DNA from: Sorghum bicolor
Taxonomy: Eukaryota > Streptophyta > Magnoliopsida > Poales > Poaceae
Length of the DNA: 64,000 nt
Assembly (NCBI RefSeq): GCF_000003195.3
Contig: NC_012873.2
Coordinates: 11,369,894-11,433,893 of the forward strand
Direction of reading: 5' to 3'
Below are positions 16,709 through 56,249 of the stretch, piece after piece (position 1 is the first letter of the stretch; each line of letters opens with the position of its first letter). A model generated the notes under the pieces. The model did not search any database. It saw only the letters and a list, made by a program, of their open reading frames with translations, and was not told where the DNA came from. Position numbers and translations under genes: made by a program.

Positions 16709-16716
<8 letters not shown>

Positions 16717-16748
16717 TATAGAAATTGAATCTCAACTTTTATATCAAT

Positions 16749-18375: not shown

Positions 18376-18405
18376 CTCTAAGACCTAAAAGGGATTAGCC
18401 CTGTT

Positions 18406-21423: not shown

Positions 21424-22141
21424 TGTTGACACTGTTTTTTGGACACAAATTGGCATAGTCAATGAAGCCTGGATCGGCAGTTAGGGAAGTAATGTGTCTG
21501 ACCGATAAGGAGGTTGCCGATGGCCTGTGATACCGATGACAAGGCAACATGAGGAAGATATGGCTAAGTCTAGAGACGGTTGCTGATCGGTGCCGATGGC
21601 TGATTTTGATGATTGCCGATGCCGATAAAGGATATTATGCCGATGATGGTGAAGGAAGACATGGGGGTCATCGGGAGGACAATGGTGGTGTGCCAATCAC
21701 CTACAATAGATAGATTGTTACTTTCCGTAATTGTTAGAGTTTATTTTATGTATGAGTTCTGTTTGGTTTGGAACTAAAATCCTAGTCGTATCTAGTTGTA
21801 ACTCTTTAGGACAGAGTATAAATATAGGCCTAGTAGCGATGTAAGAAAAATCAATCAATATCATATACAAGTTTTACATCTACTTTTTCGACGACTTCGT
21901 CAAACTCACACGTTTTCTTCTATTTACGAGTTCTTAAGAATTCAGTGAGTCATACTCGGTGAATTCTTGAGTTCCGCATAAATACCTCTTGGCCGTGGCA
22001 TCTAGGCGCATCGATGTTATCGGGACCAAAGTATTCGAGTTACCACCTTTGTCGATTGTTTAGGTCAAATCGGCTGGCACACCTCAACATTTGAATCAGG
22101 TATTAGTCCTGTGTGTTTGTAGATCTATTTTTGCATCAACA
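21424..22141 (+). repeat. 5' LTR of the truncated Tat element (718 bp)
   Basis: Starts TGTTGACACTG and ends TTTGCATCAACA, matching the 701-bp LTRs at 39739 and 51439 in layout but clearly more diverged. A TATA-like GTATAAATATAGG lies near 21816-21828. Confidence 0.9.
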
Positions 22142-22187
22142 CATCTTTTGGCACGCCGAGTGGAACCAATCTATCAACAAGATCAAC

Positions 22188-25100: not shown

Positions 25101-25829
25101 TTCTAAGTTTGAAAATCGACAGCAATCAAATCCTAGGGGAAAAGGGCCATCGGTAGATGTTAACATGGTGTTTATGTTGCCGATGGAGTTTCTTGCGCCT
25201 TTTAGTGATGATGAAGCAATAGACTTCCCTGATCAGATAGCTCAGTTGGCACTTGATCCAATGATAGCTATTTTTTTAGAAGCCTTCCGATGACGAAAGA
25301 CAAAATCTTAAAGCTCTGTTAGTCAAAGGCAGGGTTGATGGGTAGCCAATTTCCAAGATACTCATTGACAGGGGAGCTGCAATCAATATTATGCCATATG
25401 CAGTATATCGGAAACTTGGCAAAGGAGATCAGGATTTGACCAAGACTGATATGATGTTGAAAGAATTTGAAGGGAATGTGTCTCTAGTTAAGGGAGCTAT
25501 ATGTGTTGAATTGACCATCGGTAGCAAGACTTTGCCGACAACTTTATTTGTCATCAGTGGAAAAGGTGCATATAATTTACTGCTGGGGAGAGATTGGATT
25601 CATGCCAATTGTTGTATTCCTTCTACATTGCACCAATGCCTTGTTCAGTGGGTAGGTGACAAAATTGAAATTGTCCCGGGAGATTCTTCATGTCATTGCA
25701 TCGGCAGAGTCAGATACTTATGAGAGGACCAGATGCATTTTAGGGGAAGTTTGGGAAAAAGATTTTCTCAAGGTTGCTGATTATGAAATTCCACCGATCC
25801 AAGCAGTCGGTTCTGATGAGGAATTTTAA
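22188..25829 (+). pseudogene. Gag-protease of the truncated Tat element, broken
   Basis: ATG 22188 starts MATTELNADNVT. TAG at 23160 stops the first block (349 residues counted from an upstream non-ATG codon). Homology resumes 23235-23966 (Gag core: FTKFSRQDDTSTMEH, LLGSAFTWFISLPPNS). Further stops at 23964-23966, 24081-24083 and 25343-25345 and frameshifts near 24385 and 25280 follow. The protease active-site segment reads LIDRGAAINIMP. The terminal TAA overlaps the pol ATG as TAATG (25827-25831), as in the complete copy. Confidence 0.88.
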
Positions 25830-26633
25830 TGGATAGGTTCGCCGATGATGGAAAGTTAGGACAGGGGTTTACATCGGCTAATATGATTGATTTTGCAAAG
25901 GAGCCGTATTGTTTACCGATTTGGTATTCCTCAAACGATAACTACCGATCAGGTTACCAAGTTTACATCAGGAGAGTTTGCTGAGTTTGCAATCGGTATG
26001 GGAATTAAAGTGTTGAATTCTTCTCCTTACTATGCTCAAGCCAATAGACAGGCCGAGGCTTCTAACAAAGGAATTATTAAACTCATTAAGCGAAAGATTG
26101 AGGAAAATCCCACACGATGGCATACTCTGTTAAATGAAGCCTTGTGGTCATATCGGATGGCGTGTCATGGTTCGACCAAAGTGTCACCTTATCAACTAGT
26201 GTATGGACATGATGCAGTACTACCTTGGGAAATTAAAACTAGTTCTAGGAGGATGTTTTCTTAGGATCAGTTAACTGCCGATGACTATGCTACTTTGATG
26301 AAAGATGAGTTGGACGATTTAGCAGAGCATCGACTGAGAGCTTTAATTAGCATAGAGGAGAATAAAAAGAGAGTGGCTAAATGGTATGATAAAAAGGTAA
26401 AAGCCAAGCAGTTTGCCAATGGGGATTTGGTATGGAAGCTGATTCTACCGATCGGGACTAAAAGTTCAAAATTTGGAAAATGGTCTCCTAATTGGGAGGG
26501 TCCTTATCGGATAAATCGATCTGCTCCTGGCAATGCTTATGTTTTGGAAACTCTCAAAGGAGTTGAATTTCCCAGAGCATTGAATGGAAAATATTTAAAG
26601 AGATACTACCCTAGTATCTGGATTAACGCATAA
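25829..26633 (+). pseudogene. Pol remnant: integrase C-terminal half after a 2.4-kb deletion
   Basis: The first pol codons (MDRFADDGKLGQGF) jump directly to the integrase core (NMIDFAKE, YRFGIPQTITTD). The two homologous positions in the complete copy are about 44180 and 46605. The second Asp of the triad (TTDQ) and the Glu (RQAEASNKGI) remain; the first Asp is lost. One TAG interrupts at about 26262, and the end YYPSIWINA matches the intact family end. Confidence 0.88.
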
Positions 26634-26799
26634 AAGTTTAAGTGTCGATAACAATCCTATCGGCTGGATAAAATGTCGAGTGTATCTGGGGCCATGCATA
26701 AAGAGTTTAAGTGCCGATAACAGTCCTATCAGCTGAACCAAATGATCAGAGTTTTTGAGAAAGAAATTAAACAAGTTGCTGATGAAAAGCTCACAGGTT

Positions 26800-29700
26800 C
26801 AGCAAGGTTTGGATAGCCGATATTGTGTGCAGACGAATCTAGTTGGCTTCCTCTATCTCTCGGGTGTCTTCATCCGCGGAACCTTCCATCGGCTTCAGCT
26901 TCTTCTTCATGTGCAATGCTTTGCGGGCTTGGACATCTCTCTTGCTGAAGGGTCTTGAGCGCATCAGGCAGTTGGCTTTCTTCCTGTTGGGCTTGAGTCA
27001 GAGCTTCCTCCACCTGCTTGAGTTTAGCCAGCAAAGCCTCCCTTTTGGCCGATAGATCAGAAATTCTCTGTTTCAGTTCGGTGCCTGAGGTTTGCAGAAC
27101 ACCGATGCTCTTATGCTTCTCATTGGCAGCATGCTTCACTTGCAGCATCTCTTTTTTAAGCTAGGCATGAGCAGCTCTATCGGCAAGGCGTTGAGTGGCT
27201 TTCTGGTACTGTAGTTGGCGACTTTCTAGGTGGACAGCTTGAAAAAGGATCTCTTCAGTATCGGCTGGAATCTGGCCACGAAGAATCTTGAATATGGCTT
27301 TGGCCGGGTCGGAATCATCCACTAGCTGGGTTGTGTCTTCATGCAACAAAGCTAGTAAATCTTCCAACTTGGTCTTGATCTCTGCCGATGTAATGCCAAC
27401 TGCCTTTGAGGAGCTTGCTTCTTCGCCTTCGTCATCAGATATGTCGACAGCAAAGAAGAATAGGCTATCGGGAGAGTCTTGCGCCTGGAAAAGGAAGAAG
27501 ACAAGTTACCCAAAATTGACAATGCAAAATCTGATGGATCGGGTAACTTACTTGCTTCAAGGCGATTTCTTGTCTCTGGCGTGGAGATGTAGCTGGCACT
27601 ATAGTTTGATCGACTGGAGTTGCCGATGGAATATCTTCAATTGGAAATTACCAAGGGTTATGATGGTATTTATGAAAGAAATCATCGGTAATGATTCTAT
27701 AATCGGTACTTTACCTTGAGGGGGAATGGCGATTGTCTGCTCAGGGTGGACAACTGATGATGTACCCAAATCGACTGGGTTCGTGGTCTGTCCAGATACG
27801 TCGATTGGGTCTGCTTGTGGAGGAGAAGGAACTTCTTGCGGCTAGGGCACTGATCGAGAAGGAGAAGGTGCTGCTTGGATCGGGGATGCTGGACAAGGTG
27901 GAGAGGATGGTGCTGTCTTCTGTCGCTTTGGCTAGGTCTTGGTGCTTTTCGGACCCTTTCTCTTAGGAGGAGCTTGACTGGGCTGGGGGCATCGACACCT
28001 AATGTTTGAGTGCTCTTGGTCATTGCCGATGCACCAGTCTGCTGTTACAAAAACCAAACTTTTGTAAGTTAGATATAAGAAAAGGTATTGGTGGAGTTTT
28101 GCTAAAGTTTGGTGCAGAACAGAGTTACCGATGACGTTCCCGTTGTAGCCGATGTACCCTAAAAAGATAATGTAAGTGTGGGATGAAATCGGTATGGTAG
28201 GGAAAATTGAGTATTTACCTTGAAAGCTTGTGCCAGAGTGGCAGCAGCTACCGAAGGAGAAACTTTCGACCGCTTGGTGGTCGTCTTTTTGAAGCGGATG
28301 TTTCGGTGCATTAGAGTTGCTAAACTTGGCACACTGTGGCCGATCAAAGAGATTGGACCTAATTGGAGGAGGTCGATCGGCCTTCCGCTTCTGCTCACCA
28401 TCAGTGCTGGGTCATCAACCTGTTGAGATGAAAAAGGGTGACTTGCCGCTAAAGTTAAAATTAACAAAAGGACTAAAGTATCGACAAGGAACTTACAATG
28501 TCATCGGGAACTTCATATTCAGGGTCGATCATGTTGCGGTACATGTGAGTTGATACCCTGAACAGATGCTCCTTCCATTCTTCCCACCAATGTTTGTATG
28601 ACTCAGTAATAAAGAGAGCCGGAACCCAAGCCAATAGATCAATGTTTATCGTATCAGCGTATGGCTAGAGTTGAGCTATCCTGATCCACTTGAGTCCGCT
28701 GGTTATTGTCTCCCTTGGTTTTACAACATCGGCATAACAAAGTCTGATCGGCAGTTGACCAAAAGCTAGTTGGCGAGCTAGTATCGATGGGTTGTAAAAC
28801 TCATAGGTGGTGTTGATGTTCTTTCTGCTGTCAAAGCTGTTTACTGGGATTGCTCTTGGGGTGATAATTGCCATCATCAGGTCATTGTCTTTATTAAGAG
28901 CATCATCAAAGGGGTGGAAAGTGAGCGAAAATCTGGACTCTGGGTCTTCATAGGGCATCCATGCTCGCTGATCTTTGGAAAGACCATCATACAAAGTCTG
29001 GAAGAATCGACCGATCTGGTTCTCATTGGAGCTAGTACCAGGAAGGACTATAACAGCTTCACCATAGTTGAGGGGTGAGCGTGTTGCCAATTCATCATCT
29101 GCCAGTTTATATTCCTCGGCGATGTCCCGTGGGAACTGTTGCGCGAAGAAGTCAAACTGAAGGCGTTTGTGCATGTGGACGTTGAGCCACATGTTGGTAA
29201 ACCACCAAGGGCCTCCTAGATTGCCGATGGGTTCACCTAATAGGAGTTTTTTGGCTACTTGACGGAGGAGATGATAGACAGAGCCCAACAGGTATCAGCC
29301 AAGGGGGAATCGGTTACCATCGGCTAACCTTTATGCTGCCGATAAGTAGACAGAGGTTGGTCCTACCGATCAGCCGCAGAAGATGAATTTATCTAACCAC
29401 ATATTTAGAAAAGTGGCATGTTCTCTCTGACCAACCGATCCCGTTCGTTGATATTTCTGAATATACCCTGACCAGCCTCCGATGTTGTGGGTTTCTACTT
29501 TATGTTTGGCCTTGCGGCTGAATAACTAGCCATCATCGGTAGTTGCAACATCCAAACCAGTGAGCATGACTACATCGGCAAGCGTAGGGGAAGCTGGGCC
29601 GTGGCCGAAAATAAAAGCATTAAAAGTATCTGACCAGAAGTATGAGGCAGCTATCGGCATTGATTCATTTCTTTCCATATCGGCAATGGAAAGCCTGATG

Positions 29701-29842
29701 CACTGGTCTATTTTGCGTTCACCCCAATATACTTCGTTTGTTTTGCTGACCCTCAAAAACCAATCTTTCCATCCTTTGGTGGGGTTCGGCCACGATCGGG
29801 AAGTGTCTTTCCATAGATCTAAAGAAAAATTCTCGGCCCTCC
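26800..29842 (-). pseudogene. Antisense plant-mobile-domain gene copy, broken and 5'-truncated
   Basis: Homologous to the spliced antisense gene at 47521-50795. Conserved exon borders are a GTAAGT donor after EVPDDI (exon end 28497), the next exon 28419-28219 (201 nt, the same length as in the other copy) ending AAG|GTAAAT, a CAG acceptor before 28041, a GTAAAG donor at 27714, a GTAAGT donor after IALKQ near 27555, and a CAG acceptor before AQDSPDSLF near 27487. The PMD part shows LLGEPIGNLGGPWWF, FGHGPASPTLADVVML and WGERKIDQCIRLSIAD. The C-terminal coiled coil is present (KRISDLSAKREALLAKLKQV-like). Stops and frameshifts (e.g. TAG near 27160) and loss of the 5' exon at 29842 mark it as dead. 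Confidence 0.8.
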
Positions 29843-30448
29843 CTGGGTGCTAGCGTCCGGTGGTCAAGGGAAGTTTACAACCTCCCTGGGTGTGGGACCG
29901 GACGTTGCCCGGTGAGTCCGGTGCCTAACCCTAAGGCACCCAAACTCCCAACGGCTAAGGACTTCACCGGACGCTACCTCTCAGCGTCCGGTGCAGCGTC
30001 CGGTGCCCCCTTTTGCATCCAAACTTCGTCGAAACGCGATCGCTCCAAAACGAAGTTGGTTCCTCTCGATCTAAGGACTATCTCTGAGCTGCCTAGTGCT
30101 AGGTTTACCAAGTGTGCACCACACCTAAACCTAAAGCCTTGCCTAAGTCAAGCTACTAGATCAAAGCCCCTCTTAATAGTACGGTCAAAGGAAAACAAAG
30201 TCCTAAACTACTCTAAGTGCCCTTCTTCACCATATGGCACTTAGACCAAGTCTAGTCTTGACGATGTCCAACCATCCTTTCAAAATCGAAACGATTTCCA
30301 CTATTAAGTAGGCATGTACATCCCTGTCCATCGAGTACCTATTACCATGACCTTACCTATGACTTTGCCTCTGCAAAACACACGTTAGTCATAGTAATCA
30401 ACATTGTCATTAATCACCGAAATCACTAGGGGCCTAGATGCTCTTTCA
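29843..30448 (-). repeat. 5' part of a SIRE-type copia LTR, minus strand
   Basis: On the minus strand it begins TGAAAGAGCATCTAGGCCCC at 30448, the typical start of this grass copia LTR class, and runs to the junction with the Tat element near 29842. It contains several CCGGACGC/GCGTCCGG motifs (29858-30010). The remainder of the LTR is missing. Confidence 0.7.
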
Positions 30449-31137
30449 CTTGAGTTTGCTGCAGATTTATTGTTACTCTTAGGTGTTTCCCGATGCCCTA
30501 GATGGCTTGGAGCAGCGGAGGTGTTGAGCTCATGATTGGAGATTGTTTCGAGCCTTACCTAGTGATTTGTGAGGGGTTGTTGAGCCTTTCCCGTGGGAGA
30601 TCACAATTGGCTACTCTAGTGGATTGCTCGTGGCTTGGAGGATCCCTATCTTGTGAGTGGATGTGTGGCACCCGCTGAGGGTTTGGCTTTGAATTGCCAA
30701 TTAGCTCATGATCCATCAAGAGTGTGTATCGCCACAACGAGGACTAGCTTGTCGGGAAGCAAGTGAACCTCGGTAAAAAATCTTATGTCATCCCTTGTCG
30801 AGGATTCTCTTGTGATTGTGATTGATTGATTGGTTATATATCTACTCTACAACATCGGTATAACAATCACTCCCCACTCCTTTACTTTCTTGTTTACCTT
30901 GGTAGTTGTGTAGCTTGTGTAGATTAGTTCTTGTTTAGGAGTATAGCTAGCTTTAGTTGTGTCTTGTTGTTGTGCTTTAGTATTTAGCCTTGTACTAGAC
31001 TTTAGGTGGCTTGCATAGCTTAGTTGAGCTAGTGCTAGAATAGCTTTGCCATTTGTTTTACTAACCAACTTGTCTAGTTGAGTTTGTAGAAAATTTAAAT
31101 AGGCTATTCACCCTCTCCTAGCCATTTGGACCTTTCA
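30449..31137 (+). repeat. 3' part of a copia LTR, plus strand
   Basis: Repeats 12037-12708 of the copia 5' LTR closely, ending CCATTTGGACCTTTCA. It may be the 3' LTR of that copia element or an independent copy; the 5' half is replaced by the minus-strand LTR just before it. Confidence 0.75.
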
Positions 31138-39697: not shown

Positions 39698-39738
39698 CTT
39701 ACCATTAGGTCTGAAAACAGTACGGATATTTTCCGATC

Positions 39739-40439
39739 TGTTGACACCGTTTTTTGGGCACGTGTCCAGGATGGCAGGATAAAGTGGCAGTATGCTGTTT
39801 ACAGGATGAATTGCCGATGAGGATGGTTGCCGATGAAGGAGAGGTCGGATGTGACTAAGTATGCAGGCAGTGATGTGTTTATGCCGATGGCTATAATTTG
39901 GGAGTCTGCCGATGACTATGGCAAAGAGTCTGCCGATGATATGGAGGAGGGATCCGGAAACTGATGATCGGTTTATGGAAGAATTTTAGTTCGTCACGGG
40001 AGATAGCTTTGTTATTTCCTTATTTATTTAAGTCGTTTTGTATACGGATTCCGTGTAATTTGGAATTCGAATTCTAGTCGTGTTTAATTGTAGCTCTTTG
40101 AGCAGGGTATAAATATGAACCCTAGGGCCTTGTAATGATCTATCTATCAATCAAACAAACACACGTTTTACTCATATTCTAGCATCTACTTTTCGACGAC
40201 TTCGTCATACTTTTTTCTTTTTACTACGAGTTCTTAGGAATTCTTCGACTTAAGCTCGGCGTATTCTCGAGTTCCGCGTGAGTACCTCTTAGCCGTGACA
40301 TCCGGGCGCATCGCTGTTGTCAGGACTAAAGTATTCGAGTTACTACCTTTGCTGATAGTAAGGTCAAATCGGCTGGCACGCCTTAACGTTTGAATCGGGT
40401 ATTAGCCCTTTGTGTTTGCAGATCGATTTTGCATCAACA
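39739..40439 (+). repeat. 5' LTR of the complete Tat element
   Basis: TGTTGACACCG to GCATCAACA. TATA-like GTATAAATATGAA at about 40107-40119; the 3' LTR copy has an A in place of T here. Five GCCGAT and one ATCGGC hexamers occur in 701 bp. Confidence 0.95.
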
Positions 40440-40486
40440 CATATTTTGGCACGCCCAGTGGGACAAGATTCAAGATCAAGATCAAC

Positions 40487-43400
40487 ATGTCGATCTCTGA
40501 CTTTGATCAGGAGAACGTCATCCCCGTGACAGAAGCCAATCTCAAGGATGAGCAGAAGCAAGCTATTGCCCAAGCTATGGAGGAATACAAGCTGCAATGC
40601 CTGAAGTCCTTCAGCATAAATAGGAGTGGCGAGGTGATCCAGAAGGATGCGCTGCCGGCACCACGGCAGGTTACTTTCGAAGCCAATCCGGGCAAGCTTC
40701 AAGATATGGTTGACAGTGCTATCAACCGTGCTTTGATCAACCAAGCTGGCGTACTGTCTAATACGGTTTTCAATGCCGTAGCAAGAACTTTCAAGGAAGG
40801 ACAAATCCCTCCAGATTATGTGGGCCCTACTCACCATCAACCAACAGCACCAGAGGTTACGGCTCCATCGGCTGCTTTGACGGCCGCAAGTGCACAATCT
40901 GCCGTCCCGCCAAGCACATCGGGAGCTACTGGTGCACTGTCTGTGCCGATGACAACCAACCCACAGACTTCAGGTGGGCAGAATAAACTGACAACAGATA
41001 TGTTGGCATCGGCAATGTCAGGGTTGACTCTTCCTCCCAACTGGTGGGGTTATGGTATGCCCCCAGAATTGACGCCGGGTACATCACAGATAACCGACAT
41101 GAGAGGCAAGACTCCTATGACATCGGCGCTTCCCAATGCGCCGTTGAACCAGAGTCCTCGGTATACTACAACTACTACTGCAAGGCCTCACACTAGGAAT
41201 CCTCAAGATTCAATGTTCCAGATGCCTAATACATCGGCAGATTCAATGCTGATGCAACAGAGGTCTATGGCCCAGTCGGGGTATGTCAATTCAATGATGG
41301 TACCCAATTACCAATCATCGGCAGCGCCTATGCCGATGAACGCTAATAACGGATGGCTTGGGCAGCAAGTCTTTCCACAATCGCCCCAACAGAGTTACCA
41401 GGCTACAGGGTTCCAGCAAGGACAGATATATCCCGGATTCCAGAGTCAGGGGATCCCCAATCAGCCAATGAATATCGGACAGCAACTCGGGGGGCAGCAA
41501 ATCGGTGGACAGCAGTTTGGTGGTCCGCAGATTGGAGGTCAGATGATCAACCCAATGTTCCGTGCAGATCATGCCCCAAACAGACACGTGGAGGCTCGCC
41601 ACCAGGCGCCAGATCCGCAGCCACCACATCGGCAGGATGCCGATGCATATTGGGCCGATAAGATCGCTGAAGTAATGAGGGAACAATTTGGGATAAAGCC
41701 CAAAGTCAACACTTACTCTTATCGGACACCGTATCCTCCCGCATATGATTTGATCCCGCTTCCACATCGGTACAAGGTACCAGACTTTACCAAATTTTCC
41801 GGGCAAGACGACACGTCAACCATGGAGCATGTCAACAGGTTCATCATTCAATGCGGAGAAGCTGGTAACAGGGACAAATTAAGGGTTCGTCTATTTTCAT
41901 CGTCATTGTCTGGGTCGGCCTTTACTTGGTTCATATCATTACCTCCTAATTCAGTGATTACTTGGGCCGATCTAGAGAAATAATTCCACAAGTACTTCTT
42001 TTCTGGAGTTCATGAGAAGAAGATCACCGATTTGGTCAAATTGAGACATCGCAATGATGAATCGGTTGAAGGTTTCGTGCAGAGGATACGGGAAGTTAAG
42101 AATAAATGCTATAGTCTGATTCTAGATGATCGGCAGCTAGCCGATTTGGCTTTCCAGGGTTTGTTGCCACACATCAGGGATAAGTATGCCTCTCAGGAGT
42201 TTGAAAGCTTAAGTCATTTAGTACAGAGGATTTCTGATCAAGACATCAGGCCTTTTGAGCCCAAAAGAGCATGGAACAAGAAGGTGTTGTTTGTTGATGA
42301 AGCAACAAGCTCAGATTCTGATGAAGAACCAGTAATCGGCTTGGCAGAGTGGGTGAAGAACAAGAAGCCGATGTCTTGTCCTTTTGGGCAAAAGGAACCA
42401 GAAAAGTTCGCTTTCGACACTGCTAAGGCCGATAAGATATTTGATTTTCTACTCCAGGAAGGTCAGATCAAGTTGTCTCCTAATCACGTGATCCCATCGG
42501 CAGAGGAGTTGAGGAAGATGAAATATTGCAAGTGGCATAATGCAACTTCTCATGACACCAATGACTGCAAAGTTTTCAGACAACAGTTGCAATCGGCCAT
42601 AGAGTCTGGGAGAATAAAATTTGACAGTTCCAAGACTCAGAAGCCGATGAAGATAGACCAACATCCTTTCCCGACAAACATGTTGGATGCAAAGGGGAAG
42701 GCCAAGGTTTTAACATCGGAAGCAGCTGAGAACAGTGCATCGGTAGATCCTCAACATCAGATTACTACTACCGATGCAAAGAGTAAAGGCTTGGTCCAGG
42801 AAGGGACTAATTCGGGTAGGCCTCCTCGGTCCGGCATCGTTATAACTCATAGAAGGCCTCGAGAGAATTGGCAGCAACGGGAAGATCGATATCGGCGCCA
42901 ACAAGAGGATTACCGACGGGAGGAAGAAAGACGCCGACAGGAGTGGAATCGGCATAGAGATCATTGGAATTGTCCGTTCTTCATCCATTGTTGGGAGGAA
43001 AATATCAAGCTTCCCACTGTCAGAGACTGCCCTGAGTGCAACGGTTATGATCGGTACGACAGGACCAATCGGCGTTATCATGATGATGATCGGCGATTTA
43101 ATGGGCCAATCAGAGGAAGGGCGTCAGTTCATGATCGGCTGGGGGGCAGGCTCAGCGTGCACGATAGGCTTGGCAATCGTGTCCAATATTTTCCCAGAAA
43201 CCAGGAAGAACTCGAGGAGATGGCTAATGCATGAGTTCCCGATGAGTTCATATTTTGCAGGGATGCTAACACGCATCGGATGGAGTCAAGGGAGAATCGA
43301 CGCCTAGCAGCAAGGCAGAAACCGCTTCCTCCATGGTGTCCTGAAGGGTTAACCAAGACACAGAAGAGGAGATTGCAACGAGAAAGGCAAGAGGAGTTAA

Positions 43401-44134
43401 GCAAAGGCGAGGACTCTAGAAGTCAGCAGCCGTCAGACACTAAGAGGGAAGGTCCATCGGCAGGGGTTAACATGGTCTTTATGTTGCCGATGGAGTTTCT
43501 TGCACCATCCAATAATGATGAGTTAGAATTTTCCGATCAGATAGCTCAGCTGGCTCTGGATCCCATGACAGCTATCTTTGAGAAACCTGCCGATGATGAA
43601 AGGCAGCATCTCAAAGCTCTGTTCGTCAAAGGAAGGGTTGATGGGCAGCCGATGACCAAGATCCTAGTTGATGGTGGCGCTGCTATTAATATTATGCCCT
43701 ATGCAGTATATCGGAAGCTTGGGAAAGGGGATCAGGATTTGACCAAGACCGATATGATGCTCAAAGACTTTGAAGGAAACGTGTCTCCAGTCAAGGGGGC
43801 AATATGTGTGGAGTTGACCATCGGCAGCAAAACCTTGCCGACAACTTTCTTCGTGATTAGTGGAAAGGGTGCTTACAACTTATTGTTGGGAAGAGATTGG
43901 ATTCATGCCAATTGTTGCATCCCGTCTACAATGCACCAATGCTTGGTTCAGTGGGTAGGTGACAAGATTGAGATTGTCCCAGGGGATTCTTCTTATGTTA
44001 TTGCATCGGCAGAGGCGGATACCTATGAGAGGACTAGGTGCATTTCAGGGGAAGTTTGGGAGAAGAATTTTCTCAAAGTTGCCGATTACGAGATTCCACC
44101 GATCCAAGCAGTCGGTTCTGACGACGGTTTTTAA
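40487..44134 (+). pseudogene. Gag-protease of the complete Tat element, two premature stops
   Basis: One frame from ATG 40487 to TAA 44132-44134, about 1,215 codons, broken by TAA 41981-41983 (Gln in the sister copy) and TGA 43232-43234 (Trp in the sister copy). The N-terminal part is Pro/Ser/Met-rich and low-complexity, with a Gly/Gln stretch (about 41480-41560). The Gag core has FTKFSGQDDTSTMEH, LSGSAFTWFISLPPNS and ITDLVKLRHRNDESVEGFVQ. A zinc-knuckle-like CKWHNATSHDTNDC follows, then an Arg/Glu-rich helix. The protease has LVDGGAAINIMPYAVYRK with the catalytic Asp, and LLGRDWIHAN. It would supply particle protein and protease were it not interrupted. Confidence 0.9.
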
Positions 44135-47100
44135 TGGATAGATTCGCCGATGATGGAAAATTAGGCCAGGGATTCACATCGGCCGATGATTTGGTAGAGG
44201 TAGATATAGGTAGTGGTGATAAGCCTAGACCTACTTTTATTAGTGCTAAATTAGATCCTGGGTGTAAGCAACAATTAACTAATTTGTTAAAGGAATATAA
44301 AGATTGCTTTGCTTGGGATTATACTGAGATGCCTGGTTTAGACCGATCAATTGTTGAACATCGGTTACCCATCAAGTCTGGATTTCGGCCACATCAGCAA
44401 CCAGCTCGCCGATGTAATCCTAACATTCTACCTGATATTAAGGCCGAAATCACCAAACTCATTGAAGCTAAGTTTATTTGACAGTGTCGGTATGCCGAAT
44501 GGATTTCCAATGTTGTTCCGGTTTACAAGAAAAACGGGAAGCTTCGGGTGTGCATTGATTTCAGGAATCTCAATAAAGCTACGCCGATGGATGGATACCC
44601 GATGCCTGTTGCCGATCTGCTGGTTGACGCTGCGGCTGGTCATCGGATCATTAGCTTTATGGATGGTAATGCGGGATACAATCAAATATTCATGGCAGAG
44701 GAAGATATTCCAAAAACCGCATTCAGGTGTCCTGGACATGTTGGGTTATTTGAATGGATAGTCATGACCTTTGGGTTGAAGAATGCTGGTGCTACTTATC
44801 AAAGGGCCATGAATTTTATATTTCATGAGTTCATCGGCAAGCTGGTAGAGATCTATATTGATGATGTGGTGGTTAAATCTGAGGATTTCTCAAAACATCT
44901 TGCCGACTTACAAAAAGTGTTAGAGTGCACAAGGAAGCATGGATTGAAGATGGATCCCAATAAGTGTGCATTTGGTGTATCGGTAGGGCAGTTTCTTGGT
45001 TTCATGGTACATCAAAGGGGGATTGAAATTAGTCGAAGATCTATTGATGCCATCAATAAGATAGTGGCCCCTACCAACAAGACTGAGCTCCAGTCCTTGA
45101 TCGGCAAGGTAAATTTTATCAGGAGATTTATATCCAATCTGTCTGGTAAGATTCGTGCTTTCAGTCCTCTTCTTAAATTGAAAGCCGATCAAGAATTTAT
45201 TTGGGGAAAAGAGCAGCAGTTGGCTTTGGATGAAATCAAGAAATATCTAGTGAATCCTCCAGTTCTAGTTCCACCTCAACAAGGAAAGCCCTTCAGATTG
45301 TATTTGTCTACCGATGGGACGGTTATCGGTTCAGCTTTGGTCCAAGAATTTGAAGGGAAAGAGAGGGTAATTTACTACCTAAGTAGGAGGTTGATTGATG
45401 CTGAAACTAGGTATTCGGCCATCGAGAAACTATGCCTATGCTTGTATTTTTCGTGTATCAAACTGAGGCATTACCTGCTATCGGCCGAATGCACTGTTGT
45501 TTGCAAGGATGACGTGGTCCGGTACATGCTATCCATGCCGATTATGAGTGGCAGGATTGGTAAATGGATTTTAGCGCTGTCGGAGTTCGATCTGCGTTAC
45601 GAATCGGCCAAGGCAGTCAAAGGGCAGATCATGGCCGATTTTGTGACTCAGCATTGCGGTGTAGTGGAAGCCTTGGAAATTGTACCCTGGACGCTTTTCT
45701 TTGATGGATCTACCTGTGACCGGGGGTCAGGAATCGGCATTGTATTAGTTTCCCCTAAGGGGAGGAAGTATGAGTTTTCCTTGCCGATTGTTGCTACATC
45801 AACGAATAATCAGGCTGAGTATCAGGCTCTGATCAAGGGATTGGAGTTGTTAAGAGAAGTTCGTGCTGATGCTGTTGAAATCTTCGGGGATTCTATGTTA
45901 GTCATAAATCAATTGGCCGGGAGCTATGAATGCCGAAGTGAAGTTCTCATAACTTATTTCGAGAAAAGCATGCAACTGTTAAAGGAATTCAAGGATTTCC
46001 GATTAGAGCATGTTTCCCGATTGCATAATGAAGACGCCAATCGGTTAGCTCAGCATGCCTCAGGATATCAGCCTATGATTAATGCAATATCGGCAATCGG
46101 TGCTGATGATTGGAGGAAAGAAATTATATCTAAAAGATCCATCCAAAAAGGTTGAAAGACGAGTTCGATTTCAAGCAACCAAATATGTGCTCCTCGAAGA
46201 TGAATTGTATTATCGAACTATTGATGGGATTCTTCTCCGATGCTTGAGTGATGATGAAGCTAGAAGTTTGATGGGAGAAATCCATGAAGGAGCATGTGGG
46301 GCACATCAGTCAGCTTTTAAGATGAAGTGGATGATTCGAAGGAATGGATACTTCTGGCCGACTATACTTGAAGATTGCTTTAAATATTTCAAGGGGTGTC
46401 AAGGTTGTCAAAAGTTTGGTAATATTCAAAGAGCACCCGCATCGGCTATGAATCCTATCATAAAGCCTTGGCCGTTCCGGGGATGGGCTATCGATCTGAT
46501 CGGCCAGATTTATCCACCATCTAGTAAGGGGCATAAGTTTATTTTGGTTGCTACTGATTATTTCACTAAATGGGTTGAAGATATTCCTTTGAAGAAGGTC
46601 ACCTCGGCCAATATGATTGATTTTGTGAAGGAACACATTATTTACCGATTTGGGATTCCTCAGACGATTACTACCGATCAGGGCACTATGTTCACATCGG
46701 GGGAGTTTGATGAATTCGCAATCGGTATGGGGATTAAAGTGTTGAATTCTTCTCCTTATTATGCTCAAGCCAATGGGCAGGCCGAGGCATCTAACAAAGG
46801 AATTATCAAGCTTATTAAACGAAAGATTGAAGAAAATCCTAAGCGGTGGCATACATTGTTAAATGAAGCACTGTGGTCTTATCGGATGGCTTGTCATGGA
46901 TCAACCAAGGTGTCACCCTATCAATTGGTGTATGGACATGATGCAGTGTTGCCTTGGGAGAATAAGGCCGGATCCAGGCGATTATCTTTTCAAGATCAGT
47001 TAACCGCCGATGATTATGCCACTTTGATGACCGATGAGTTGGATGATCTAGCAGGGCATCGGTTAAAAGCTTTAATGAGTATAGAAGAAAATAAGAAGAG

Positions 47101-47362
47101 AGTTGCTAGATGGTATGATAAGAAAGTGAAGACTTAGGAGTTTGCCGATGGGGATTTGGTATGGAAATTAATTTTGCTAGTCGGGACTAAAAGTGCGAAG
47201 TTTGGAAAGTGGTCTCCTAATTGGGAAGGTCCTTATCGGATAAGTCGATCGGCTCCTGGTAATGTCTATATTCTAGAAACTCTTGAAGGAGTTGAATTTC
47301 CCAGAGCATTAAATGGCAAATATTTAAAGAAGTACTACCCCAGCATATGGGTCGATGCATAA
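44134..47362 (+). pseudogene. Pol of the complete Tat element (RT, RNase H, second RNase H, integrase), broken
   Basis: ATG 44134 overlaps the gag stop (TAATG). RT: VCIDFRNLNKATPMDGYPMP, FMDGNAGYNQI and catalytic YIDDVVV. RNase H: STDGTVIGSALVQ, YYLSRRLIDAETRYSAIEK. A second, archaeal-type RNase H follows: LFFDGSTCDRGSG, TNNQAEYQAL, FGDSMLVINQ, LHNEDANRLA. Integrase: HEGACGAHQ / CQGCQKFG finger, AIDLIG, ITTDQG and GQAEASNKG triad. Breaks are TGA 44479-44481 (CGA expected, FIRQCRYAEW), a frameshift between about 46105 and 46155 (probably a 2-nt loss in an ATATAT run) and TAG 47135-47137. The last residues are YYPSIWVDA. Confidence 0.92.
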
Positions 47363-47520
47363 AAGTTTAAATGCCGATAACACTCCTATCGGCTGGATTA
47401 AAGTGTATCTGGGGATGGACTTAATGTTTCAAAAGATGCCGATAACAGTCCTATCGGCTAGACTAAGACATTAAGAAAGCTGAAATGCAGAAGAGCAAAG
47501 GTGTGTTGCCGATGAGAGCT

Positions 47521-50500
47521 TCAGATGTTCAGCAGCGCTTGGATTGCCGATATGGCACGTAGCCGGATCTGATTGGCTGTTTCTATCTCTTTGGTATCAT
47601 CATCGGCAGAACCTTCTATCGGCTTCAGCTTCTTCTTCAACTGCAGCGCTTTGCGACCGTGGGCATTTCGTTCTTGTTCGAGGTGCTTGATGGTTTCCGG
47701 TAGTTGGCTCTCTTCTTGCTGGGCCTGAGACAGGGCATCCTCTACTTGCTTGAGTTCGGCCAGCAGGGCTTCTCTTTTTGCCGATAGATCAGAGACTTTC
47801 TGCTTCAGTGCATCACCTGAGGACTTTAAGGTGCCGATGTTCTTATGCTTCTCATCGGCTAAGAGTTTTTCTTTCATCATCTCCTCAGAAAGCTGGGTTT
47901 GAGCAGCTCTATCGGCAAGGCGTCGAGTGGCTCTCTGGTACTGCAGCTGGCGGCTTTCTAGGTGTGCGGCCTGGAAGAGGGTTTCTTCAGCGTCGGCAGG
48001 AATTTGGCCTCTAAGGGTCTTGAACAGGGCCTTGGCTGGGTCAGAATCGTTGACCAGTTGAGCTGTGTCTTGATGAAGTATGGCCGATAGCTCTTCCAGC
48101 TTAGCCCTGGTTTCTGCCGATACAGTCCCAACTGCCCGAGAAGAGCTTGCTTCCTCACCTTCTTCTTCGGAGATATCAATGGCGAAGGAGAATAGGCTGT
48201 CAGGAGAATCTTGTTCCTGAAAGTAAGGATGAACTAAGTCATTTTTATGATCAAAGCTTCGGCAAACAATACTGGTGGAAAATTGGATGCCTTACTTGCT
48301 TCAAGGCGATCTCTTGCCTTTGGCTGGGAGGTACTGATTGAGCTACAGGTTGATCGGCCAGGGTTGCCGATGGAACGACGTCAGCTGAAAGTTAACAGAA
48401 GGGGTTATAAGATCGAAAAGGGAAAGTTCATCGGCAGTAATAGTATTATCAAAATATGCTACCCGGGGGAGGAACAGTGATTGTCTGAATCGGGGGAACT
48501 GCCGATGGTGCGATTGGACCTGCCGGGCCAATTGTTTGTTCACCCGTATCGGCTGATGTACCTTCTGTTTGGGGTTCTTCCTGCTGGGGTTCATCTACTG
48601 CTGGTGCTTCTTGCAGATGAGGGGGAGATGGTGCTTGCTGCGTCTGGACTTCTAGAGAAGAAGGGGAAGACTCCACCGGAATTGGAGACACCGAAGGGGG
48701 AGGAGGAGTTGCCACCTTCTGGCGCTTTGTTCCAGCCTTAGCACCTTTTGTGCCCTTCCTCTTTGGTTGGCTAGACTGGGGGGCATCGGCACCTTGGCGT
48801 TTGGCTTTTGCCGATGCACCGGTTTGCTGCAGCAACAGAAAGGAGTTTATAAGCACAGATATAGCCGATATAAAGATGGTCAGTGTAAAAGAAAAATATT
48901 TGACAAATTGCCTTGAAAGCCTGCGCCAGAGTGGAAGCAGCTACCGTAGGTGATGTCTGAGTTCTCTTGGTGGTGACTTTCCTGAGGCGCACACCCCGAT
49001 GCACGACGGAAGCCAGAGTGGGAGCATTGTGGCCGATTGAGGAGATCGGGCCTGATGGAAACAAGTCGATCGGCTTGCCACTCCTGCTAACCGATGGGGG
49101 GATGTTGTCAACCTGCAAAAGGAATACAAGGGTAAGCTACCGATGGAAATAGTATTGAAAAAATGAAACATCGGTTTGAAATACTTACGGTGTCGTCGGG
49201 GACTTCGTATTCGGGGTCGATCATGCCGCGGTATGAGAGGGCCGATCTGCAGAATAGATGCTCTTTCCATTCTGCCCACCATAGCTTGTATGCCTGAGTA
49301 ATAAAGACAGCTGGAACCCATTCTGACAGATCTACATCTGTATCGGCATTTGGTGGTAGTTGTGCTACTCGAATCCACTCAAGAAAGTTGGTGATGGGTT
49401 CTCTGGGTTTTATCACATCGGCATAAGGAAGTGCAATCGGCAACTGGCCGAAAGCTAGTTGGTGAGCTAATGCCGATGGATTATAAAATTCATAGGTTTG
49501 GGGAGAGGTTTTTGTGCTACCAAAGAAATTCACTGGTATGACTCTGGGAGTCACAATTGCCATCATCACCTCATTATCCCTGTCAAGAGCTTCATCAAAT
49601 GGATTGAAGGTTAGAGGGAGCATACTGTCTGGGTCATCATAAGCCAACCATGGTCGTTCATCTCTGGCCAATCCCTCATACAGAGTCTGGAAGAATCGGC
49701 CGATCTGATCTGGATTACTCCCTGAACCAGGTAAAACTATGGCAGCTTCGCCAAAGTTCAGGGGGGCACGTGTTGCCGATTCTTCTTCGCCCAACACATG
49801 ATTTTCGGCTATATCTCTTGGGAAATGCTGTGTGAACAAGTTGAAGTCAAGGCGCTTATGCAAATGCAGATTGAGCCACATGTTAATAAACCACTAGGGG
49901 CCTCCCAAGTTGCCGATAGACTGACCAAGCAGGAGTTTCTGGGCTACTTGATGAAGAAGATGGTAAGCAGCGCCAAGCAAGTATCGGCCGAGAGGAAATT
50001 GACCACCGTTAGCCAGTCTCTCTGCTGCCGATAGATAGACAGAAGTCGGTCCTGCCGATCGACCGCAGAATACAAATTTGTCCAGCCACATGTTCAGAAA
50101 GGTGGTTTGTTCCTTTATGGTGACAGGCCCCTTCCCACGGTACTTCTGAATGTACCCTGACCAACCGCCGATAGTGCGAGTCTCCACTTTGGCACTAGGA
50201 GCGGTATCAAAGAAATGGGTGCTATCGGCAGAGGACACGTCCAGACCAGTGAGCATAGCTACATCGGCAAGAGTGGGAGAAACAGGACCGTGGCCAAAAA
50301 CAAAGGCATTAAGGGTATCTGACCAAAAATGAGACGCAGCTATCAACAGCGACTCGTTCCTGTGCATATCGGCAATAGATAGCCTGATGCATTGGGCTAG
50401 CTTCCTTTCACCCCACTGGACTTCACAAGAATTGCTGACCCTCAAGAACCAGTCTTTCCACCCCACGGTAGGGCTGGGCCAAGAGCGGAAGGTGTCTTTC

Positions 50501-50795
50501 CACAGATCTAAAGAAAAATTTTCAGCTCTAAAGGGGATCCTGTTGGTTTCTGCGTTGATAAGGTCGGTTGGATCTGGGTCCCCTAGAGGGCCGAGGCATT
50601 GAATGTGTGGTTGATCGGTGGGGATGACAATTTTGTTGGACAATTCCTAGTGATTTTGGGTGTAAAGGAAACACAAAAGAAAGAGGAAAAGGAAGATATT
50701 CAGTAAAATGAATTACGGATGAACAGGGATACGAGAAAAATATACGGGAGACGAGATGGAGATCTGACCTCAGGAACGACGAAGCCAATGGCCAT
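47521..50795 (-). pseudogene. Antisense six-exon plant mobile domain (PMD) gene inside the Tat element
   Basis: Exons by inspection: 50795-50769 (MAIGFVVPE), 50646-49189, 49112-48912, 48826-48463, 48385-48296, 48216-47521. Donors and acceptors are GT-AG (best donor GTAAGT at 49188-49183) except a GC donor at 48911. Phases match at the first four junctions. The product is about 940 residues: a PMD (aminotransferase-like plant mobile domain) over roughly residues 30-470 with WGERKLAQCIRLSIADMH, FVFGHGPVSPTLADVAMLTG and WLDKFVFCG; then Ser/Pro-rich disorder (KRQKVATPPPPSVSPIPVES); then a coiled coil (ISDLSAKREAL-like, KQVEDALSQAQQEESQLPE). Defects are TAG 49896-49894 (Trp in the sister copy) and a 1-nt insertion in exon 5 near 48361. 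PMD proteins such as MAIN/MAIL1 act in silencing and genome maintenance in plants; the role here is unknown. Exon 1 could begin upstream, where the frame stays open but lacks an ATG. Confidence 0.75.
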
Positions 50796-50943
50796 CTTGC
50801 TGCGAAGAAAGTGTTTGAAGGCACCGGGGTTGATGAGGAGGAGTGCTTGTTGGAGGTCTTGGGAGTTTCGGATGGCGCCGCCGCTGGAGAAGTAAAGATT
50901 GGTGGTGGATTGATGTGATGGGGAAAGAGTACCCGAGAAGGAA

Positions 50944-50952
50944 CTATTTATA
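50944..50952 (-). promoter_or_regulatory. TATA box of the antisense PMD gene
   Basis: TATAAATAG on the minus strand about 150 bp upstream of ATG 50795, in a CT-rich 5' UTR-like sequence. It is outside the LTRs, so it would be an independent promoter. 50953-51438 holds no other ORF of note. Confidence 0.6.
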
Positions 50953-51438
50953 GGGCAAAATGGGCAAGGGCAAATCTGACTTATCTCTTTGCCGCCTCCG
51001 AGAAATCCGAGGGTACTCAGGTAGATATGGTAACTGTTCGCACGGTAATCAAGGGATTGCGCAGGTGATTTGACGGGAAGCGGTCATTATCTGAAGATAT
51101 TTTACTGTGCGAGATCTCCTGGTCGGTCCATCGGCAGCGTTCTATAACGGTCATATTGCCGATGGGCGAATAAAGGGGAGGTAGCCGTTTGTACGAACGT
51201 CCTGGTCAGTATATCGGCAGATCTTTGTAACGGTATTATTGCCAATGTACGGTTGAGAGAGAAATGCCCGTTTAGGAAGTTGGGGATTTCGAAGGATCTG
51301 CGGGAGAATAGGATCAGAGTTGTTCAGATTGAGGTTGTCGGTTACCAGATTAGGAGCATTAATTGCGGGAAGAAGGCATCATTACTGCAGAGAATTTCGG
51401 AGTATTAATAGTTTTATACTCCGAAATTGGGGGGCATG

Positions 51439-52139
51439 TGTTGACACCGTTTTTTGGGCACGTGTCCAGGATGGCAGGATAAAGTGGCAGTATGCTGTTT
51501 ACAGGATGAATTGCCGATGAGGATGGTTGCCGATGAGGGAGAGGTCGGATGTGACTAAGTATGCAGGCAGTGATGTGTTTATGCCGATGGCTATAATTTG
51601 GGAGTCTGCCGATGACTATGGCAAGGAGTCTGCCGATGATATGGAGGAGGGATTCGGAAACTGATGATCGGTTTATGGAAGAATTTTAGTTCGTCACGGG
51701 AGATAGCTTTGTTATTTCCTTATTTATTTAAGTCGTTTTGTATACGGATTCCGTGTAATTTGGAATTCGAATTCTAGTCGTGTTTAATTGTAGCTCTTTG
51801 AGCAGGGTATAAAAATGAACCCTAGGGCCTTGTAATGATCTATCTATCAATCAAACAAACACACGTTTTACTCATATTCTAGCATCTACTTTTCGACGAC
51901 TTCGTCATACTTTTTTCTTTTTACTACGAGTTCTTAGGAATTCGTCGACTTAAGCTCGGCGTATTATCGAGTTCCGCGTGAGTACCTCTTAGCCGTGACA
52001 TCCGGACGCATCGCTGTTGTCAGGACTAAAGTATTCGAGTTACTACCTTTGCCGATAGTAAGGTCAAATCGGCTGGCACGCCTTAACGTTTGAATCGGGT
52101 ATTAGCCCTTTGTGTTTGCAGATCGATTTTGCATCAACA
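51439..52139 (+). repeat. 3' LTR of the complete Tat element
   Basis: Same length as the 5' LTR, with about 8 substitutions, preceded by the purine tract ATTGGGGGGCATG. Confidence 0.95.
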
Positions 52140-52489
52140 CGATCGTATTCGAGACCTAATTCGTTTAGAGGGGTTTAAATCTGTCCGTATCCGAGTCCGA
52201 ATATTCAACATCCGATAATGTATCCGTATCTGAATATTTAAATCATATATTTATAATGTCGAAATCCAATCGTATCTTATCCGACGTGGTTAACATTATC
52301 CGTATTCGAATCCGAATCTGACCAGAAAACAAATATGATATCGGTGATATCCGATCCGTTTTCATCCCTACTTACCATAGAGATAAAGTTGTTCAAGTTG
52401 GTTGACACCAATATTAAACATTAAATAGTAAAGTTTATTTTCAACCATCAGGCTGCAAGTCAGCCCGATATTCAATCATGAACTATATA

Positions 52490-53493: not shown

Positions 53494-54266
53494 CTAGGTG
53501 AATTCCCCGCGCGTTGCTGCGGGATTTTCTGAAAAATAAATCATTATATATATAGCATTACTATATGATATTCAGTATATTATGTATGTATTCATAGATA
53601 TGAACTTGACTTGTATGTATTTTATTGTATTAGATCTAGTATAAAAAAATTGCTAAGCTAATAGAAGAAAAACTAATATTTGGTTATATTATAGAGGATT
53701 TAGTGATGAAAAAAATAATGTATATACATGACTTGTATGTTAATAGATTAAAGATTTAAAGTATTTCACATGATATAGATGACATGGTCATTTTTTGTAA
53801 TTAATATAGGATGACATGGACTTAGTGGAGAATGATGTGGACACCTTGCATGAAGAGATAGAACATTTAGTGGGTCACTTAGTGGGAAATGATGTGGACA
53901 TCTTGCATGAAGAGATAATTGACTTGAATGTATTTTATTGTATCAGATCTAGTCAAAAAATTGCTAAGCTAATAGAAGAAAAACTAATATTTGGTTATAT
54001 TATAGAGGTATTAGTGATAAAACAAATTGTGTATGTACATGACTTGTATGTTAATAGATTAAAGATTTAAAGTATTTCACATGATATAGATGATATGGTT
54101 ATTTTTTGTAATTAATATGAGATGATATGGACTTAGTGGGGAATGATGTGGACACTTTGCATGACGAGATAGAATATTTAGTGGGTCACTTAGTGGGAAA
54201 TGATGTGGACACCTTGCATGAAGAGAGAATTTATCTAGTGGGGTTTAGCTTTATAAGAGTATATGA
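53494..54266 (-). mobile_element. Non-autonomous Helitron, minus strand (773 bp)
   Basis: On the minus strand it begins A|TCATATACTCTTATAA and ends in the hairpin CCCGC-AGCAACGC-GCGGG about 10 nt before CTAG|T. These are the A/T-flanked TC...CTAG termini of Helitrons. An internal tandem duplication of about 320 bp (units near 53609-53929 and 53931-54230) explains the extra length relative to its inverted partner at 55659. The ORF at 53816 is non-coding repeat. Confidence 0.75.
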
Positions 54267-55053
54267 TATGGGTCTCTTTGGCATGAGAAGCTAAAATATG
54301 GCTTCAATGTGCAAGCTCATGAAAGCAGCTGAAGCCGAAGAAGCCACATTCCACTTGCGGAAGTCAAGAAATGACTTCACTCCCTGGTGCTTTATTCCAG
54401 AAGTTGTTTCTCACATAGATGTTTGGCAGGGCTTCACCTCAAGCAGTTCAAGCTAAAGCTGCCCAAAAGTCCTACAAAAAATGCCCTAACAGTTGGAAAC
54501 TATTAAAGAGGGTTTTCTCTGGTCCATGGCAAAACCTGATTTTGAGAGAACTTTTAAGGAGCCCTTGAGATGCTTTTAGTGTTTATGGGCTATCTCTTTT
54601 GGTGTTTAGTGTCTGATGGTCATTTCAGCGGCAAAAGAAAGGTTCTCGTCTTGGTCAATCGCTACCACAACAAGAGTGTGGTTTTCCTTTTCTTCGCTTG
54701 ACCATTTTTGTGGGAAGAAAAGTTTGACGTAATGACACTAATGGACCGACCCTTCATGATGTGTTTTTGCAATCATTGCTGAGGTCTGTTTTGTCTTGTT
54801 TACGTTTTAGTCGGCAATTCTACTCGATGGAGAATATGAGTGTTTCACTAAGAAAACAACTTTAATCCTTTTTGTCGTTTCTGCTTGGGAAGGAGATTAT
54901 TCCACGTCATTAATATAACTATGCTCTTTCCTTTTGTTTTTGCCACTTTGGTCTTGTTGGATATTTTTCCTTGTCGAAAAAAGTACTGTGAAATAATTGA
55001 AATTTCAAAACTTATCAACACAGTGGCACGAACGATACGATGAATAGTTTTTA
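54267..55053. other. Unassigned spacer between inverted Helitrons
   Basis: No credible ORF. The part near 54270-54480 (TCTCTTTGGCATGAGAAGCT onward) looks MITE-like but lacks a clear second end. Confidence 0.35.
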
Positions 55054-55374: not shown

Positions 55375-55658
55375 TTAGAGAACACCTAAAATTTGAGAAG
55401 TATTTATGAAAAATATCTGCACCTTTTAAAAGTCTCACGAGAGTTTTGCAATGGAAGTCAACTTTTTGTTATCTTACTTGAACTAGTTAGAAGAGGACAC
55501 GTGAATATTAGATTAACTGAACCCTCACTACTGGGCTAAATATATATAAGCTCACTCCTGGGTGAAACAGAATCCAAATTCGAATGAGAATATTGCCTTT
55601 CTGTCGCAAGGATAGACTTTGTTCGCCTTTTCCTCTGGAGAAGTGCCGGGAGTTGATA

Positions 55659-56117
55659 TCATATACTCTTATAAGCTTAAACCTCACTAGATGAATTCTC
55701 TCTTCATGCAAGGTGTTCACATTATTCCCCACTAAGTGACCCCTAAATGTTCTATCTCTTCATTCAAAGTGTCCACATCATTCTCCACTAAATCTATGTC
55801 ATCCCATATTAATTACAAAAAATATCTATGTCATCTATATCATGTGAAATACTTTAAATATTTAATCTATTAACATACAAGTCATCTACATATCCTATTT
55901 GTTTGATCACCTATATCTCTATAATGTAATCAAATATTCTATTGTTTTTCTTCTATTAGCTTAGCCATTGTTTACCAGATCTAATACAACAAAATAACAT
56001 GCAAGTCAAATTCATATATATGTATACAAAATATAGTGAAAACCATGTAATAATGTTATATATATAATAATTTATTTTTAAAAAAATCATGCAGCAACGC
56101 GCGGGGAAGTCATCTAG
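55659..56117 (+). mobile_element. Non-autonomous Helitron, plus strand (459 bp)
   Basis: Same family as 53494-54266, in opposite orientation. Begins A|TCATATACTCTTATAAGC and ends GCGCGGGGAAGTCATCTAG|T. Its 3' hairpin stem is damaged (CATGC against GCGGG), and only one copy of the internal segment is present. Confidence 0.75.
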
Positions 56118-56249
56118 TTATAAGAGTTTTTATAACCAAGGACAAGAGTGACAAACGAAATTAAACCAGAAAACAACCCTAACGTGTTAACAGGAGTTAG
56201 GAAACCGAAAAATCTTGATGTTGATACACCACCTCAAGCTAAAGGTCCT

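Follow-up and report, generated by a model that had tools for sequence, protein, structure and literature searches.

The locus analysed here raises the question of why a retrotransposon should carry an intron-containing gene on the strand opposite its gag-pol region, and on what the encoded protein could act. The element in question is a Ty3/gypsy element with long terminal repeats (LTRs) and spans positions 39739-52139 (12.4 kb; LTRs of 701 bp) of a 64,000-nucleotide stretch of Sorghum bicolor DNA (contig NC_012873.2, 11,369,894 to 11,433,893), which is referred to as the window in the following. Its antisense gene, coding for a plant mobile domain (PMD) protein, had been proposed in an earlier note made from the letters of the sequence. 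Our analysis confirmed this gene and revealed a six-base motif, ATCGGC, not reported in that note. The motif is strongly overrepresented along the element, synonymous codon choice is bent toward it, and it is under selection.

The gene model runs on the minus strand from 50795 to 47521, between pol and the 3' LTR, and comprises six exons and five introns. The exons, all on the minus strand, sum up to 2835 nt, corresponding to 944 codons and a stop codon. All five junctions are in phase, where the earlier note had called the phases mostly compatible; the acceptors are AG and the donors GT with the exception of intron 3 (GC). Exon 1 (50769-50795) contributes 9 codons including the ATG. A TATA box, TATAAATAG, occupies 50944-50952 on the same strand, and the distance from its start (50952) to the ATG downstream is 157 bp. 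Exon 2 (49189-50646) encodes the plant mobile domain and is split in the window copy by one in-frame TAG at 49894-49896, which the earlier note did not contain. Exon 3 (48912-49112) is followed by the GC donor, exon 4 (48463-48826) encodes a Lys/Arg-rich cluster resembling a nuclear localization signal (net charge +11, residues 561-600) and then a Pro-rich linker, and exon 5 occupies 48296-48384. Exon 6 (47521-48216) encodes an acidic stretch and a coiled-coil-like tail, which could multimerise the protein, and contains the stop codon. Thus, the Pro-rich and coiled-coil parts described earlier were found again, the latter with weak matches. The suggested search with PF10536 yielded scores above the Pfam gathering score of 34.9 bits, both for the first open part of exon 2 (50.7 bits, E 1.9e-13) and for exons 1-2 with X at the stop (57 bits, E 2.4e-15). 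Hence, the antisense protein belongs to the plant mobile domain family PF10536. A PDB sequence search returned weak coiled-coil matches only. The gene is probably transcribed and spliced, and its product presumably located in the nucleus.

Evidence that the exons are real comes from other copies. An older copy of the PMD gene in the window (26560-29831, minus strand; without exon 1 and promoter) shares 62-75% identity with exons 2-6 and 48-58% with introns 2-5. For this pair the ratio of nonsynonymous to synonymous divergence (dN/dS) is 0.158 (bootstrap 0.124-0.199) when read in the proposed frame, compared with 0.27-2.04 for the five alternative frames; exon 6 gave 0.137, and the gag-pol pieces of the pair 0.05-0.19. 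Furthermore, eight genomic copies were compared, the window's own included; these are the loci of best matches and not a random draw. TATA box and ATG were present in 8/8, so that the proposed promoter was borne out. At donors 1-4 and acceptors 1-3 the terminal dinucleotides are conserved in 8/8; one copy shows a gap of a single base ahead of donor 1. The positions of acceptor 4 and intron 5 fall outside the compared loci. The site of the window's TAG is open in 7/8 copies, and 3/8 have one stop each within exons 1-3. Over exons 1-3 the pooled dN/dS for the 28 pairs was 0.134 (pairwise 0.05-0.45). The family is large: a search of the genome (709 Mb in 846 contigs) with the first 250 residues of exon 2 resulted in 4687 first-look candidates, of which 150 were scored, and 142 of these contained no stop. 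Both checks named earlier, open frames in the family and a dN/dS not near 1, were therefore in favor of the gene. Chance exons are rejected by the exon/intron contrast to the older copy, the frame-specific dN/dS, and the conservation of splice sites and ATG, and the antisense gene is under protein-level purifying selection. The GC donor of intron 3 (48911-48910) was found in 8/8 family copies, and the older window copy has GT; this represents a fixed GC-AG intron in a gene of a mobile element.

When all hexamers were counted against dinucleotide shuffles, ATCGGC and its reverse complement GCCGAT occurred 108 times in 39739-52139 with 4.9 expected, an excess of about 20-fold and a density of about one per 115 bp. 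In the stretch of an older Tat copy (21871-30448), 46 were found with 2.6 expected, and the remaining 31.6 kb contained 5. From the 168 sites in the window, 160 are located in the two Tat copies and 8 outside, if 21473-21870, probably the remainder of the older copy's LTR, is counted as Tat. The motif is sharply defined, since single-base variants reached 0-26 against 101 copies of ATCGGC (one LTR counted); the commonest, ATCGGT, is itself above background. Orientations are nearly balanced (51 vs 57 by strand), and the spacing is like random (coefficient of variation 1.09; random 0.81-1.19). Sites were found in LTRs, gag, pol, and exons and introns of the PMD gene in several frames. The density was 8.5-11.6 per kb in the LTR, gag-protease, and PMD exons, 6.3 in the region from reverse transcriptase (RT) to integrase, and 4.6-4.7 in PMD introns and the upstream region; it reached 18.3 in the 383 bp that separate pol from the antisense gene. 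The other retroelements in the window showed no ATCGGC enrichment, and eight of their open reading frames (ORFs) hold 0-1 copies. A general property of retroelements at this place is thus rejected by the other window elements and by the genome sample described below.

The two Tat copies of the window are 76% identical over 7392 aligned bases. From the 46 ATCGGC sites of the older copy, 36 are intact in the complete element, and in the reverse direction 36 of 74, compared with 22% for all other hexamers and 11-15% for other CG hexamers without the motif core. A third copy from the genome sample (L019) gave 42/53 and 42/63 for the motif versus 29-30%, and 20-25%, for others. The eight close copies show little contrast in this respect (84% vs 73-74%). 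Codon choice depends on the neighboring residue in the manner the motif demands: serine is encoded by TCG in 28/38 cases before alanine and in 16/172 elsewhere, proline by CCG in 16/27 cases before ATx and in 23/173 otherwise, Ala-Asp by GCC-GAT in 22/31 (7.3 expected), and Ile-Gly by ATC-GGC in 11/20 (1.8 expected). The PMD coding sequence contains 33 motifs, whereas 1000 synonymous shuffles had a mean of 6.06 and a maximum of 13; five gag-pol pieces of the complete element also lie above their shuffle means (4-13 vs 0.9-3.0). Synonymous divergence (dS) is 0.39 in motif codons and 1.62 outside. Where both copies encode the same residue, the codons are identical in 51/68 cases within the motif, in 305/557 overall, and in 113/246 within other CG hexamers.

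To see the motif in a wider context, we sampled the genome in 20 stretches, each 10 kb long and placed at round-number positions of contigs C1-C7; 19 of the stretches were readable (L026 reads N). ATCGGC was the top hexamer in 4/38 sampled 5-kb blocks, namely both halves of L019, the first half of L030, and the second half of L034. L019 carries the PMD gene and an integrase at 92% identity, and the L030 block carries a related gag. The L034 block (5001-10000) contains nine ATCGGC in 5 kb, no Tat coding sequence was identified in it, and it possibly derives from a decayed or noncoding section of a related element. ATCGGC was also the top hexamer in further PMD copies chosen by PMD protein match (L009-L014, L035, L037), and L036, which overlaps L011 and has no PMD match, contained 7.

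A different Tat-like element, L024, has an RT about 37% identical and an antisense gene for Transposase_28 (PF04195, E 3.8e-16). Here CCTCGA/TCGAGG occurred 54 times per 10 kb with 9.6 expected (21 and 33 by strand). Its CCTCGA sites are kept in the copy of L030 (9/11 and 9/21 vs 26-27% for other hexamers) and in L025 (5/5 and 5/7 vs 35-36%). This motif is weaker and less sharp than ATCGGC, with a CTCGA or TCGA core and variants up to 35. In a second Transposase_28 family, L038, CTGGTCG was found 12 times in 4 kb (0.7 expected), 11 of the 12 on one strand and partly in an array with 70-bp spacing; CGACCA sites of L038 are kept in L025 in 18/33 cases vs 24%. Some sampled blocks showed other words. 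ACTAGA/AACTAG (GAACTAGA), with AACTAG enriched about five- to sixfold, was seen in L017:5001-10000, L033:5001-10000, and L030:2601-9500 and might be a CpG-free motif of a further family, and ATAGCG occurred 19 times in L022:1-5000 with 1.6 expected.

A selected six-base word that is dispersed and symmetric with respect to the strands is most simply a site of DNA-protein recognition. As ATCGGC is element-specific, its reader is most likely an element-encoded protein, and the PMD protein is the sole product found outside gag-pol. By analogy to the VANC proteins of VANDAL elements, the antisense PMD protein may recognise ATCGGC and counter the silencing of its own element, a reading to which we assign somewhat less than even chances. 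A Tat-type element would, according to this proposal, carry between pol and 3' LTR an antisense accessory gene with its own TATA promoter and five introns, which would yield a nuclear PMD protein. ATCGGC would mark the element DNA along its full length on both strands, even inside codons. Alone or with a host partner, the PMD protein would bind the motif as double-stranded DNA and in this way recognise its own family; once bound, it would spread along the copy and oppose host silencing, which would permit transcription of gag-pol. The introns can survive retrotransposition because splice sites of the antisense strand are not read in gag-pol RNA, as follows from the polarity of splicing. In the earlier note countering of silencing was a guess, which is now better founded by the element-wide motif. 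With slightly more reserve, we suggest as a generalization that Tat elements carry a whole-element, family-specific self-tag in LTRs and synonymous codons on both strands, more than one per nucleosome length, read by their own antisense PMD protein or, elsewhere, by a Transposase_28 protein, to resist silencing.

Several observations weigh against recognition of the motif by the PMD protein. Tagging of this kind does not require a PMD, since a motif also occurs in an element with Transposase_28. In a distant, decayed PMD clade (L039-L041), ATCGGC occurs 1, 3, and 3 times per 4 kb and hence shows no marked excess; TTCGGC, found there 18 times in 12 kb (2.2 expected), is kept in 6/13, 2/8, and 0/10 cases, is not clearly conserved, and is suggestive at most as a motif of this clade. 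The predicted PMD model of the relative P0011 (mean predicted local distance difference test score, pLDDT, 71.6) matches no solved fold. Part of the conservation contrast depends on the control chosen, because CG hexamers with matching composition, which in many cases overlap the motif, are intact at 29% and 47%, and the motif counts of the gag1 and integrase (INT) pieces do not exceed the highest of 1000 synonymous shuffles. VANC motifs are noncoding tandem repeats, whereas ATCGGC is dispersed with random spacing in coding and noncoding sequence. Finally, the motif could instead be read by Gag, integrase or a host factor.

The last point leads to alternatives in which the PMD gene is at most indirectly linked to the motif or does something else. 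A host DNA-binding factor, such as an activator, insulator or recruiter of demethylation, for which the element gained sites, is in our view unlikely. The even spread and double-strand symmetry would fit any binder of double-stranded DNA, and for the DOWN motif, enriched in promoters of genes that need the host PMD proteins MAIN and MAIL1 (CATGCAGTTT at MORC1), the authors leave an unknown host transcription factor possible (Nicolau 2020, PMC7156037; Jarry 2023, PMC9899485). Yet ATCGGC is rare elsewhere, as indicated by the 8/168 window sites outside the Tat copies and by the 4/38 sampled blocks, and another Tat-like family has another motif. Reading by another element protein, such as integrase or the Gag nucleocapsid, or a role of the motif in packaging or integration, we consider quite unlikely: packaging acts on one RNA strand, yet the orientations number 51 and 57, and one or few sites should suffice for either process. 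The coverage of the whole element including LTRs and the constraint on gag-pol pieces, which equals or exceeds that on the PMD gene (dN/dS 0.05-0.19), would be compatible with this explanation.

It is improbable that the antisense transcript itself regulates via double-stranded or small interfering RNA and that the protein matters little. Its overlap with the 3' region of the element could form double-stranded RNA, as discussed by Vicient and Casacuberta (2020, PMC7264820), but the protein itself is under purifying selection (dN/dS 0.13-0.16) and has relatives in other grasses, which argues for a function of the protein. A mutational or compositional by-product, arising for example from CpG decay that spared one context, from gene conversion or from codon bias, is already disfavoured and appears very improbable. 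The motif does hold a CpG, and at 26 of the 38 sites that the older copy lacks, its sequence departs from the motif by a single C-to-T or G-to-A step; against this stand the roughly 20-fold excess with six-base specificity on both strands in several frames, the codon-context choice, the lower dS at motif codons, and conservation above that of other CG hexamers. Base composition, codon usage or CpG effects as such are rejected by variant counts, synonymous shuffles, and the codon-context and conservation tests.

The element is flanked by a target-site duplication, CGATC (39734-39738 and, identical over 5 bp, 52140-52144). The 5' LTR (39739-40439, plus strand; 701 bp, TGTTGACA...CATCAACA) and the 3' LTR (51439-52139, plus strand), defined by LTR comparison, differ at 8/701 positions (divergence K 0.0115), which, with an assumed rate of 1.3e-8 per site and year, corresponds to an insertion about 0.44 million years ago. 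Next to the 5' LTR lies a putative primer binding site, TGGCACGCCCAGTGGGAC (40447-40464, plus strand). Gag and protease frames, broken by stops, occupy 40406-44134 of the plus strand (gag-asp_proteas 1.9e-07; Retrotrans_gag below the cut-off), followed at 44482-47137 on the same strand by RT, RNase H, a second RNase H, and integrase (RVT_1 6.2e-27, RT_RNaseH 2.7e-20, RVT_3 6.3e-18, rve 4.8e-14). In the RT frame RT_RNaseH covers 268-369 and RVT_3 407-526, with the integrase after them. A second RNase H domain placed between the first one and the integrase is the layout of angiosperm Tat elements (Neumann et al. 2019, PMC6317226), and by this Ogre/Retand domain order the element at 39739-52139 is of the Tat lineage. 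Ogre elements are further defined by a spacer or intron between the gag-protease and RT-integrase frames and by a tRNA-Arg primer; the frames at 43235-44134, 44122-44481, and 44482-46155, which are broken, leave no such spacer. PF04195 (Transposase_28), the TRP28 mark of Retand, was not found in the antisense frames searched of the PMD element. The older related Tat copy (21473-29831), with the same motif, is truncated upstream of exon 2.

Ten database proteins among 7995 scored candidates match the joined protein, including annotated PMD entries from Miscanthus, Oryza, and Lolium. Six of the ten are annotated with DUF1409 as well, and our own scan at E 0.01 found this domain in 2/4 tried. A profile search yielded 745 relatives among 7996 scored. 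Unspliced ORFs such as P0015 and P0011 depart from the exon-3 reading just past exon 2, whereas annotated Miscanthus models go on with exon 3; two of these, P0001 and P0002, differ at exon 5, the 3' end of which P0001 lacks and P0002 contains. At the position of the window's stop, P0015 (135 member sequences) has an open frame. The P0002 model joins the PMD protein to a retroelement integrase region and is probably a gene-model chimera across nested elements. Dipeptide proxies for the ATCGGC motif in PMD proteins of other species gave a mixed result, and the search for related DNA in viral and genome contig collections led nowhere.

Several further repeats are located in the window. A copia-type element at 12037-31137 (LTRs at about 12037-12708 and 30449-31137) is apparently split by nested insertions, which include a gypsy element (17368-20756) and the older Tat copy. 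A gypsy-type element at 1-8188, for which an Athila-like nature is a guess, has terminal repeats 98.8% identical and contains CCGACC/GGTCGG 19 times with 1.8 expected; these sites, however, are concentrated in its LTRs and in closely spaced pairs. At 53596-54269 and 55656-56118, a stretch of 311 bp is duplicated in tandem, and an inverted copy lies about 1.5 kb from it.

Antisense accessory genes with their own promoter, such as Grande gene23, and PMDs in Tat elements are already known. The PMD-A1/A2 clades were described only in Gypsy elements across angiosperms, with both directions of transfer considered (Ikeda et al. 2017, PMC5418596), and 57% of Ogre elements were reported to contain a PMD (Neumann et al. 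2019, PMC6317226). Our gene, with PF10536 inside a Tat-type Ty3/gypsy element, resembles the Gypsy-encoded PMD-A clade and differs from it by six antisense exons with conserved splice sites and TATA box and by the element-wide motif. The earlier suggestion of a captured host gene found no support: the direction of transfer was left open by Ikeda et al., relatives exist in Miscanthus, Oryza, and Lolium, and recent capture is rejected, as the literature places Gypsy-encoded PMDs in the angiosperm ancestor. With the accessory genes of Grande (gene23), RIRE2, and Retand our gene shares the antisense position between pol and 3' LTR, and an own promoter and a nuclear protein were reported for gene23; here, PMD takes the place of Transposase_28, and a dispersed self-motif is not described in the available parts of those papers, which state the function of these Tat genes as unknown (Vicient and Casacuberta 2020, PMC7264820; Vicient 2025, PMC11963269). 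The conserved motif gives this question a direct test.

The association of a PMD protein with a short DNA motif and with the silencing of genes or transposable elements (TEs) is also seen in MAIN/MAIL1/PP7L and the DOWN motif, although these are host genes with another motif, and direct recognition is left open in the available text. PMD protein-DNA motif modules counteracting Polycomb silencing are named in a title (Pelissier 2025), and the idea that TE-encoded PMDs counter silencing is already in print (Cells 2021 review). A dispersed, codon-embedded, family-specific motif was not found in the open-licence literature searched, which was partly surveyed; the combination of an element-wide, codon-embedded ATCGGC motif with an antisense PMD gene appears to be new here. 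The closest parallel is VANC21, which binds YAGTATTAY in its own VANDAL21 elements and brings about a loss of DNA methylation (Hosaka et al. 2017, PMC5735166; Sasaki et al. 2023, PMC10398659). Common to both is a short motif enriched and conserved in an element family, and an element-encoded protein that reads it and counters silencing was shown there and is proposed here for another element class and another protein. If the proposal is true, Tat antisense accessory genes would be readers of self-tags, host PMD-motif modules would be their domesticated or shared relatives, which bears on the origin of these modules, and a second DNA code would overlap the protein code across a whole element. 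It would then be, to our knowledge, the first retrotransposon counterpart of VANC-type self-recognition.

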